From assembly GCA_027449865.1 (NCBI GenBank), contig DAIDKV010000266.1, positions 1 to 63,185 of the forward strand: DNA of 63,185 bases, read 5' to 3'. The DNA comes from Planctomycetales bacterium. Lineage in GTDB: Bacteria > Planctomycetota > Planctomycetia > Isosphaerales > Isosphaeraceae. The stretch's first letter is position 1; each line of letters begins with the position of its first letter. The position numbers were made by a program, and so were the translations under genes. Shown here one piece after another: positions 19,682 to 49,440 of the stretch. The notes beneath the pieces are model-generated. The model was not told the origin of the DNA. It made no database searches and worked only from the letters and a program-made list of their open reading frames with translations.

Positions 19682-20105
19682 TGGTAAGACTCCTTCCTCT
19701 TCCGCAGGGTCCGGTCGAACGCCGAGTTATAGCCGGCGCCTTCCGTGGTGAACAGGCCAATCGTTCCATCCATCCGGGGACTGGGGAGGCTGATGGTTTG
19801 GGGAGAGGCGTTTGGATGCAGGATTCCAGATTCAATGCAATGATCTCTCACTCGAATTCTTCTCTGTGCTCTCGGTACTATTAACTTTAAGTATCTTGGA
19901 CACCTCCCAGAATCTCATCACTAAAGATCACACATTCATTTTTCACACAATCTTATATAAAAATTATTCCTCTCTGTGCCCTCTGTGACTCCGTGGTGAA
20001 TCCGAACTGATGGGATGCGACTCGGCCGCGCTGTGACTCCGTGGTAAATCCATTCCGGCTCGCTGACCGCGATGGGTCATCTGGCCGGGGACCGCAGGGT
20101 GGGGC
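19682..20105. other. AT-rich intergenic region with CTCTGTG-type repeats
   Basis: A 424-base gap with no supportable gene. Bases 19850-19975 are sharply AT-rich against the GC-rich surroundings. Within it are CTTCTCTGTGCTCTCGGTACT (around 19858-19878), CTCTGTGCCCTCTGTGACTC extending to CCGTGGTGAA (19971-20000) and a second CTGTGACTCCGTGGTAAATC (20031-20050). These match the core of the repeat units that flank the GxxExxY gene at 36.9-37.6 kb. It may be a decayed copy of that element. Confidence 0.6.
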
Positions 20106-36867: not shown

Positions 36868-37020
36868 TTCACCACAGAGTACACAGAATCAGTACCGAGG
36901 ACATATAGATGTAAACACAGACGAGAGGCACTCGGTGGGGCGAAAGCATCAAATACAAATACGAAGACGATTCACCACAGAGGACACAGAGAGCACAGAG
37001 GAAATACCGAGGAGACTTCG
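36868..37020 (+). repeat. Left repeat units of the GxxExxY element
   Basis: Two tandem units begin with TTCACCACAGAGTACACAGA (36868) and TTCACCACAGAGGACACAGA (36971), a period of 103 bases. The first also includes GACGAGAGGCACTCGGTGGG near 36920. In the second unit the matching stretch GATCGAGAGACGCTCGGTGG lies inside the coding start of the GxxExxY gene (about 37029-37048). So the boundary between repeat and gene is not at the start codon. Confidence 0.7.
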
Positions 37021-37425
37021 ATGAAGACGCGATCGAGAGACGCTCGGTGGGGTGAGGAAGATGATGCCGTGACACGACCGATCATCGGGGCGGCCATTGA
37101 GGTCCATCGACATCTCGGGCCAGGTCTGCTGGAGTCGGTCTACGAACGTTGCCTTTGCGACGAACTGGAACGACGAGGTATCCCGTTCGTCCGACAGGCG
37201 AGAGTTCCCGTCTTTTACAAGGACCGCAACCTTGATTGCGAACTCTTCATCGACATCCTCTTTCCAGGACTCGTCGTCGTGGAATTGAAGGCGGTCGAGA
37301 AAGTTTTACCGATCCACGAGGCACAGCTTCTGACCTACATGAAGCTGACCGGTCTTTCCCGGGGTCTTCTCCTCAATTTCAACGAGATCCTCTTGAAGGA
37401 CGGCATCACCCGACGACGATTGTGA
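37021..37425 (+). CDS. GxxExxY family protein (PD-(D/E)XK-like nuclease fold)
   Basis: A 134-residue protein. GLLESVYE carries the name-giving GxxExxY (Gly35, Glu38, Tyr41). FIDILFPGLVVVELKAVEKV supplies Asp78 and Glu88-X-Lys90, the PD-(D/E)XK nuclease pattern; HEAQLLTYM (Gln102, Tyr106) and GLLLNFNE close the family signature. Members are about 125-130 residues long and are common in planctomycetes, cyanobacteria and others, often in several copies per genome. No activity has been established, so nuclease action is inferred from the fold. The first 13 codons are inside a flanking repeat unit and are the least conserved part. The gene is bracketed by inverted repeats. Confidence 0.9.
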   Translation: MKTRSRDARWGEEDDAVTRPIIGAAIEVHRHLGPGLLESVYERCLCDELERRGIPFVRQARVPVFYKDRNLDCELFIDILFPGLVVVELKAVEKVLPIHEAQLLTYMKLTGLSRGLLLNFNEILLKDGITRRRL

Positions 37426-37433
37426 CCCGTCCT

Positions 37434-37640
37434 TTCCTCTGTGTCCTCTGTGGTGAATCGTATTCGTATTTGTATTCGATACCTTCACTCCACCAGGCGC
37501 ATCTCGGCCATTTGTCGATCCATCTTTCCTCGGTATTTCCTCTATGCTCTCTGTGTCCTCTGTGGTGAATGGTATTCATATTTGCATGCGTATTTGATAC
37601 CTTCACTCCACCAATCGCTTCTCGCGGGTGTTTACCTCGA
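37434..37640 (-). repeat. Right repeat units of the GxxExxY element
   Basis: Two tandem units in reverse orientation to the left pair. The core CTCTGTGTCCTCTGTGGTGA lies at 37437-37456 and again at 37549-37568, a period of 112 bases. Each is followed by GTATT-CGTATTTG-ATACC and then CTTCACTCCACCA. The second unit ends in TCGCGGGTGTTTACCTCGA near 37640, about 46 bases before the gspE start, so the promoter of the secretion operon may lie in or beyond this repeat. Confidence 0.7.
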
Positions 37641-48090: not shown

Positions 48091-48720
48091 TCAGCGGCTC
48101 AACAACTCGATGATCAACTGGGGACGAACCGGGAGGCCCACATCCCCGGCCGTCGGCAACCGGGAGACGCGTCCCTCGGGTGGCTCGGTGCTGAGGCGGT
48201 CGAGCCATTCGGGGACGGGAGGTCCGCCGCCGGTGGCGAGGTTCTCGGTCGGCATCCGACGCGAATGCTCTCGGTCCTTGACCGCGATCTGGTCGCCGGG
48301 TCGGACCAGGTAGCTCGGGATGTCCAGCTTACGCCCGTTGACCGTGATGTGGCCGTGGGTGATGAGCTGGCGGGCCTGCGGACGGCTCATGGCGAAGCCG
48401 AGCCGGGTCACCACGTTATCGAGCCGGCGCTCCAGCAGCGACATCAGGGCGTCGCCGGTGTTACCGGTTCGGCGCGAGGCCTCGTCGTAGTATTTGCGGA
48501 ACTGCCGCTCGAAGATCCCGTAATACCGCTTGACCTTCTGCTTCTCGCGGAGGCGGATGGCATACTCGCTGGCCTTCCCCCGGCGGAACTGGTGCATTCC
48601 CGGCACGCCTTCGCGACGGTCCACGGCGCACTTCGGGGTATCGCACCGCGTCCCCTTCAGAAACAGTTTCGTGCCTTCGCGACGGCACAATCGACAGACT
48701 GGTCCAACATGACGTCCCAT
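48091..48720 (-). CDS. rpsD: 30S ribosomal protein S4
   Basis: A 209-residue primary-binding 30S protein, also a likely translational regulator of the alpha operon. It is the zinc-binding form: CRLCRREG then CDTPKC supply four cysteines near the N-terminus. [40 protein letters not shown] and [20 protein letters not shown] (S4 RNA-binding domain) are intact. ATG at 48720. An inverted pair of repeats lies just upstream, in the gap to rpsK. Confidence 0.98.
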
Positions 48721-48761
48721 GGCGGTTCGAAAAATCCTCGGTCAGTGAAAAGGCAAGATCC

Positions 48762-48882
48762 CTCACCACGGAGAGACATGGACACAGAGGGTAAAGCCGA
48801 GAGAGTTTTCAAGGACGATCCGAAGGGTGTTGGGCTTCGGGTCGGGCTCGGAACTCTGAGTCTCTGTGCCTCTGTGGTTAAA
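48762..48882. repeat. Inverted repeat pair in the alpha operon
   Basis: Between rpsK and rpsD lies TCACCACGGAGAGACATGGA extending to CACAGAGG (48762-48789) and, inverted, GAACTCTGAGTCTCTGTGCC extending to TCTGTGGTTAAAT (48851-48882). The two arms share the core of the repeat around the GxxExxY gene and could fold into one large hairpin in the operon transcript. Neither neighbouring gene is disrupted. Confidence 0.65.
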
Positions 48883-48887
48883 TCGCT

Positions 48888-49268
48888 TCAGACGCGGCGC
48901 TTCTTGGGTGGGCGGCAGCCGTTGTGGGGCAGGGGGGTGACATCCTCGATCGCCTTGATCGAGAGGCCCGAGGCCTGGATCGCGGTGATGGCGCTTTCGC
49001 GGCCGGAGCCCGGGCCCTTCACCTTGACCTCGACCTCCTTCACGCCGTATTTCGAGGCGGTCGCCGCGGCGGTCTCGGCCGCCCGCTGCGCCGCGAACGG
49101 CGTGCTCTTGCGGCTTCCCTTGAAGCCGACCGTGCCGGACGAGGCCCAGCAGAGCGCATCGCCGTTGGGGTCGGTGATGGTCACCGTCGTGTTGTTGAAC
49201 GTCGCCTTGATGTGGACCACTGCCCGGCTGACGTTGCGTCGCGTCTTTCGCTTCTTGGCCTTCGCCAC
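48888..49268 (-). CDS. rpsK: 30S ribosomal protein S11
   Basis: A 126-residue 30S platform protein. [53 protein letters not shown] and [18 protein letters not shown] are the conserved blocks. Translation starts at a GTG codon (49268), since the conserved MAKAKKRK-like opening begins there and AGGAG lies upstream; the frame is open further 5'. The order rpsM-rpsK-rpsD-rpoA is the standard alpha operon. Confidence 0.97.
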
Positions 49269-49440
49269 GATACCCTCGCTCCTGATCGACCCGGACCCAT
49301 CCCGGGCCCCATCCGATAATCCGATCCCGATGACGCCCGCCCGCGTCGCCATCGATCGCCAGCGAGGCGGAACGAGCCGGCCCAACCGGACCGGCTCCCG
49401 AGCCCCCGCATCTTATCCACCTCGGCCCGACGGGACCGAA

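Follow-up and report, generated by a model that had tools for sequence, protein, structure and literature searches.

A hairpin element with 8-nt tandem-unit arms between rpsK and rpsD of a planctomycete, probably a decayed copy of a dispersed family

What are two facing, related arms in the gap between rpsK and rpsD, and do they act on the operon around them? The question arises from a stretch of 63,185 bp of a Planctomycetales bacterium (contig DAIDKV010000266.1), here referred to as the window. The original prediction described a MITE-like derivative of a GxxExxY element, inserted cleanly between two genes of the ribosomal alpha operon and able to form a transcript hairpin that changes the ratio of S4 and the alpha subunit to S11 and S13. 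The identity of rpsD, rpsK, rpsM, rpoA, rplQ and secY was confirmed with NCBIfam models. The features of the gap are:

48721..48887, minus strand: rpsK-rpsD intergenic gap with the element, 167 bp (gene names from NCBIfam models)
48888-48890 and 48720, minus strand: borders of the gap, rpsK stop and rpsD ATG respectively, from reading of the sequence
48765..48789, plus strand: arm 1, 25 nt, three 8-nt units ACCACGGAG AGACATGG ACACAGAG
48790..48853, no strand: interior, 64 bp, without significant match to the interior of the 37-kb element
48854..48878, minus strand: arm 2, 25 nt, its reverse complement made of the 8-nt units ACCACAGAG GCACAGAG ACTCAGAG
48721..48764, minus strand: rpsD-proximal leader

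The facing arms, predicted at about 60 bases apart and free of a protein gene, are real. They are 25 nt each, lie 64 bp apart and consist of CACAGAG-type units, and the whole element measures 114 bp. Pairing between the arms is possible at 20 of the 25 positions (5 mismatches) in the genome of the window, here named G000. A repeat search with default settings failed to report the pair because the arms are imperfect. The ORF list holds no frame of the element's own of at least 60 aa; a 686-aa antisense frame passes through it.

By its arms the element belongs to a family recognised by facing ACCAC(A/G)GAG and CACAGAG-type units of 8-9 nt. The heptamer CACAGAG occurred 14 times in the window versus 4.84 expected, a number reached in 0 of 100 shuffles, and a more permissive 14-base pattern, allowing at most 3 mismatches, was not enriched there (29 versus 23.2 expected). 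In the whole genome (8.48 Mb, 278 contigs) the pattern ACCACRGAG-N(0-12)-CACAGAG gave 105 matches, overlapping ones inside one arm counted separately, versus 0 for the reversed control. The arms therefore represent a dispersed family and not chance. CACAGAG was present in 40 of 42 fetched loci (all except L134 and L135), which by eye comprised clean hairpins, doubled-arm copies, a subfamily with shared interior and half copies. By a rough codon test, the neighbouring genes were co-directional at 27 of 37 copies, convergent at 6 and divergent at 4; these 37 include three window copies and remained from 43 places after five short of flank and one ambiguous place were left out. When the element was compared with its own genome by BLAST, the five best non-self matches (E 5e-4 to 0.08) all fell on arm 2, and weaker matches covered both arms and the interior.

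A further member of the family lies in the window:

19859..20045, minus strand: non-coding CACAGAG copy at 20 kb, resembling by eye the subfamily with interior GTGCGCGGCGTACAAGATTCTC

No inverted pair of at least 14 nt was found in this copy by the repeat search. By eye it groups with L112, L114, L120 and L130, which have a common interior like GTGCGCGGCGTACAAGATTCTCAAAGTTAGTAGTACAGAG, and several copies of this shared-interior subfamily carry 48-bp end units like GAATCCGTTCTGATGGGATACGGCTCGGCCGCGCTGTGACTC.

The same type of arm surrounds a protein gene elsewhere in the window:

36871..37566, plus strand: 37-kb element, nested CACAGAG arms, mostly at 9-nt spacing, around the GxxExxY gene
37021..37425, plus strand: GxxExxY gene, 134 aa, TIGR04256/PF13366

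Each of the genome's four PF13366 genes is flanked by inverted tandem-unit arms (by eye), spelled CACAGAG at 37 kb and on contig C20, CGCAGAG on C151 and CACGAAA/CACGGAG on C101. The spelling at the C20 copy is by eye the commonest among the 100 listed of the 105 genome matches. When the 48.8-kb element was aligned to the 37-kb unit, the arms were related and no significant match was found for the interior: its 14 comparisons, which covered L238 and the C90 copies besides the 37-kb element, gave p 0.03 once and p >0.1 otherwise. Of the predicted MITE-like derivative of the GxxExxY element, two points hold, that the arms are akin and that the element looks like a MITE; derivation by deletion from the 37-kb element is unsupported, because the 64-bp interior has no significant match.

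At the level of whole genomes the arm pattern and the gene family occurred together. A PF13366 match was found in 21 of the 22 pattern-bearing genomes and in 15 of the 37 others (Fisher p 1.9e-5; 59 genomes, own included, confounded by kinship). Those 15 genomes have PF13366 but not this spelling of the arms, and in G041 the pattern stands without any match to PF13366. In G051, a relative of the same class, 182 pattern matches were found, the commonest spelling among the matches listed being ACCACAGAGGCACAGGGACACAGAG, often in facing pairs; the fetched GxxExxY gene of that genome (L259) has arms spelled differently from it.

The structure model of the GxxExxY protein (pLDDT 91.9) had SSO0001 as its best Foldseek match (probability 0.99, E 0.012), followed more weakly by lambda exonuclease (E 0.24); no Foldseek match reached E 0.001, and no match to the sequence profile was found among solved structures up to E 1. 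In 34 GxxExxY sequences, with four loci left out, D78, K90 and Q102 were invariant and E88 and Y106 conserved in at least 90%. We take SSO0001 to be a Cas4-family nuclease, and the conserved D, ExK and QxxxY residues are presumably RecB-family motifs. On the model, GxxExxY may be a RecB/Cas4-like nuclease that acts on folded arms. It is not a known transposase, and since the arms at 37 kb and C20 are of the same kind as those of the 48.8-kb element, it is a putative mover or copier of such elements. In the parts of the open-access literature available to us GxxExxY is mentioned in passing.

The gap between rpsK and rpsD was compared across 30 of the 56 genomes with an rpsD match, own included; G004 yielded no rpsD match. 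The element was present in the gaps of G000, G001 and G003, all of one genus, and absent from the other 27, including that of G002 of the same genus. The comparison among related genomes suggested with the original prediction hence revealed that presence varies, and the element is not fixed in the group because 27 of 30 gaps lack it. The gaps of G002 and G000 have little in common, so that an exact empty site cannot be drawn. MITEs are accompanied by a target-site duplication; neither such a duplication nor an exact empty site was seen in the gaps and copy sites of relatives, where the flanks are too diverged. The supposed insertion into a clean site between the genes is unsupported, as the gaps that lack the element have diverged too far to delimit an empty site or to reveal a target duplication.

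The three occupied gaps differ in the state of the hairpin. G001 and G000 share 94% nucleotide identity in rpsD. Between them 0 of 44 columns differed in the leader, which is identical in G003 as well, 5 of 45 in the arms (one flanking column counted) and 15 of 62 in the interior. The arms differ less than the interior, not significantly (p 0.13), and there may be some constraint on them. Paired positions amount to 14 of 25 in both G001 and G003; six pairs are missing there because of a gap, one pair is better and others are worse than in G000. Compensated changes were found at 0 of 25 pairs among the three orthologues. We read the hairpin as a relic that appears decayed and would be drifting without selection for pairing.

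An inverted repeat above all 40 shuffles was found in 5 of the 30 gaps (G000, G028, G021, L066 and L079), and those of G001 and G003 were not above all shuffles (p 0.075 and 0.1). Since five gaps hold such a repeat, the rpsK-rpsD gap seems to tolerate hairpins of this kind, though the numbers are small. The same gap holds hairpins with 7-nt arm units in G028 (L067, AGCGGTC-like) and G021 (L081, AGTTCGC-like).

Other copies of the family were compared between species as well. For 16 copies, counterparts of the flanks were sought in four relatives, and 30 stretches were fetched; orthologous flanks may be missed, because 40 of the 140-344 first-look candidates per relative were scored. L245 was left out of the comparison and the sites of L106 and L108 yielded no call. 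The CACAGAG element was absent in 9 of 9 site-genome comparisons (L109, L125, L120, L116, L132 and L099 versus G002 and/or G004). Within the genus, G003 has a counterpart of the window's 20-kb copy and G001 has none; the L112 copy of G000 is likewise missing from G001. At the L109 site the interior is by eye clearly orthologous in G000, G001 and G003. Here both arms changed in concert: their spelling is genome-specific, the two arms of a genome largely agree, and the spacing switches between 8 and 9 nt. The change at the L125 site was far less concerted, and at the L097 site one arm is present in an extra copy in G003. In G002, the sites of L132 and L099 carry a hairpin with 7-nt TCATTGG arms instead of the CACAGAG element (L234, L236).

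Our preferred reading is that the 48.8-kb element is probably a decayed non-coding copy of a dispersed hairpin element with 8-9-nt tandem-unit arms as found at GxxExxY genes. It would have entered the gap between rpsK and rpsD before G000, G001 and G003 split from their shared ancestor, probably as a copy made in trans by GxxExxY, the putative RecB/Cas4-like nuclease acting on folded arms. Since then it would have drifted, with little effect on the operon.

Whether arms of this kind accompany GxxExxY genes in general was addressed in a wider survey. The best 80 of more than 583 loci from several phyla were taken, chosen by closeness to the protein of the window, and 78 had enough flank. Inverted flanking arms above all 20 shuffles (by single base) were present in 57 of the 78 loci, with a score of at least 30 in 44, versus 0 of 54 for control pairs further out, which were drawn for 54 loci; above-shuffle repeats such as those at L141, L174, L185 and L196 are not tandem-unit arms. 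Among the relatives, flanking arms were found in 22 of 27 GxxExxY loci (two of 29 without motif match left out). The spelling of the arms differs element by element.

A second gene family had arms of its own. S23/23S-IVP (PF05635), which we take to be a four-helix bundle, was flanked by element-specific inverted arms above shuffles at 48 of 60 loci (L216-L218, L278-L306, L313-L342). These divide into 24 of 30 in the own genome and relatives (two of 32 loci not located) and 24 of 30 among the best 30 S23 matches from other groups, where the named genomes had been picked for holding GxxExxY. A best arm period of 7 was found for 38 of 48 S23 and 2 of 64 GxxExxY elements (p 3e-18), whereas for a best period of 8 or 9 the figures were 6 of 48 S23 and 46 of 64 GxxExxY elements (p 2e-10); in random arms each period was about equally frequent, and the period and arm tests ignore kinship among loci. 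S23 elements in relatives showed a strong signal, with a mean identity of 0.71 at lag 7; that of GxxExxY elements was modest, 0.36 at lags 8 and 9 versus 0.24-0.32 at the other lags. Arms below 18 nt or not above shuffles were dropped, which kept 64 of 111 GxxExxY elements and 24 of 30 S23 elements of the own genome and relatives.

From these results it is conceivable, and we propose it only tentatively, that the two unrelated families each have their own class of tandem-unit hairpin (8-9-nt for GxxExxY, 7-nt for S23), and that in each class the protein determines how long the units are, maintains the symmetry of the arms and acts in trans to copy hairpins without a gene. One such copy would be the element between rpsK and rpsD, and the STRR and GGGAATC hairpins compared below would belong to the 7-nt class as its non-coding copies. 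In the open-access literature, most subscription journals being outside its scope, no link of GxxExxY or S23 genes to tandem-unit arms, no established role for either protein and no mention of the string CACAGAGACACAGAG were found; matches for ACCACAGAG together with 'repeat' look unrelated among those listed. We consider this wider pattern the more interesting result, which calls for an independent check. Taken alone, the rpsK-rpsD element is of modest importance, an intergenic repeat that a core operon tolerates.

Replication could produce similar structures with no mobility protein, slippage making the units and template switching keeping the arms symmetrical, so that GxxExxY and S23 genes would be passengers. 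The concerted arms at L109 in three genomes and the extra arm at L097 in G003 speak for this. Furthermore, own arms match better than those of other elements in the 21 hairpins of G000 (score 20.05 versus 18.43; maximum of 10,000 permutations 20.00), the 48.8-kb element having the lowest own-arm score, tied with L108. However, the inner 17 nt alone were not above all permutations (own 11.43, others 10.40, largest permutation 12.43), and replication leaves unexplained both the spelling shared by tens of copies over the contigs and the link of unit length with gene family. We regard it as unlikely.

Still less probable in our view is a functional RNA hairpin that separates the expression of rpsD-rpoA-rplQ from that of rpsM-rpsK by RNA processing, stability or partial termination. 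The element does lie between co-directional genes, and in G000 its single strand folds mildly better than shuffles (RNA z -1.97, DNA z -1.93). The stretch 48600-49400 has six terminator-like matches where 0.6 would be expected, and two of the six lie on the coding strand within the gap (48777-48758 and 48767-48752). In cyanobacteria hupS-hupL hairpins with 7-bp units were suggested, in the sections available to us, to affect transcript stability or coupling (PMC2670836). Against this stand the absence from 27 gaps, RNA folding near shuffles in the G001 gap (z -1.20), the lack of compensated pairs, the six pairs lost in two orthologues and the window's 0 Rfam matches at gathering score, hence no match to a known ribosomal-protein leader RNA. 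With 14 of 25 positions paired in G001 and G003, the case for the predicted effect on the ratio of S4 and the alpha subunit to S11 and S13 is weak, and a regulatory role of the hairpin is unsupported, though the two terminator-like matches on the coding strand would be compatible with one. At this site the element probably does little.

Mobilisation by a Y1 (RAYT) transposase, in the manner of REPINs, is disfavoured as very improbable: the hairpins are small, extragenic and present in many copies, and the genome has six PF01797 matches, but CACAGAG occurred in 0 of 6 fetched Y1 loci (1.7-3.4 kb), which leaves the Y1 transposases unsupported as movers, and the arm ends carry no GTAG/CGTC tags, GACG being seen by eye only in the interior.

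Taken as a decayed copy of a dispersed hairpin, the element can be compared with several known systems, each cited paper being used for the sections available to us. MITEs are defined as 70-300 bp without coding capacity and with 15-30 bp terminal inverted repeats (PMC3733652), and the element, gene-free at 114 bp with 25-nt arms and 5 mismatches, falls within this range. The hupL MITE of Thiomargarita was linked to a PD-(D/E)XK_2 protein (PMC4853749) and is likewise a short non-coding inverted-repeat element possibly tied to a PD-(D/E)XK protein; here the PD-(D/E)XK family is another one, the arms consist of tandem units and no target duplication was seen at the diverged sites. REPINs and REPs are extragenic inverted pairs with predicted hairpins (PMC3116915), REPs bearing GTAG/CGTC tags (PMC3733652); the rpsK-rpsD family shares the extragenic inverted pairs and differs in that neither a RAYT link, in the six Y1 loci fetched, nor such a tag at its arm ends was found. 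The 23S rRNA intervening sequence of Coxiella encloses a small protein gene (S23p) within a stem that its terminal inverted repeats form (PMC4990558). That sequence is inserted in rRNA, whereas the rpsK-rpsD element is non-coding and intergenic.

Closest in build are two systems of heptamers. In Xanthomonas the GGGAATC heptamer forms inverted pairs in 70 and 75 cases in two genomes; whether a given site has the single or the paired type is usually conserved from one species to the other in a comparison of two, and in general no association with mobile elements was found in the parts of that study at hand (PMC4692102). The tandem-unit arms in inverted pairs are alike, but the Xanthomonas units are 7-nt and G-rich. 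STRR are hairpins of 7-bp tandem units between genes of filamentous cyanobacteria, for example hupS-hupL, described as of unknown function (PMC2670836). Like the rpsK-rpsD element they consist of short tandem units able to form an intergenic hairpin; their units are usually 7 bp, versus 8 nt by eye here, and the accessible sections of that paper draw no link to GxxExxY. Tandem-unit hairpins have thus been reported from cyanobacteria and xanthomonads without a known function, and the link of unit length with protein family, if it holds, would give one testable answer both to what these hairpins are and to what the S23 and GxxExxY proteins do.
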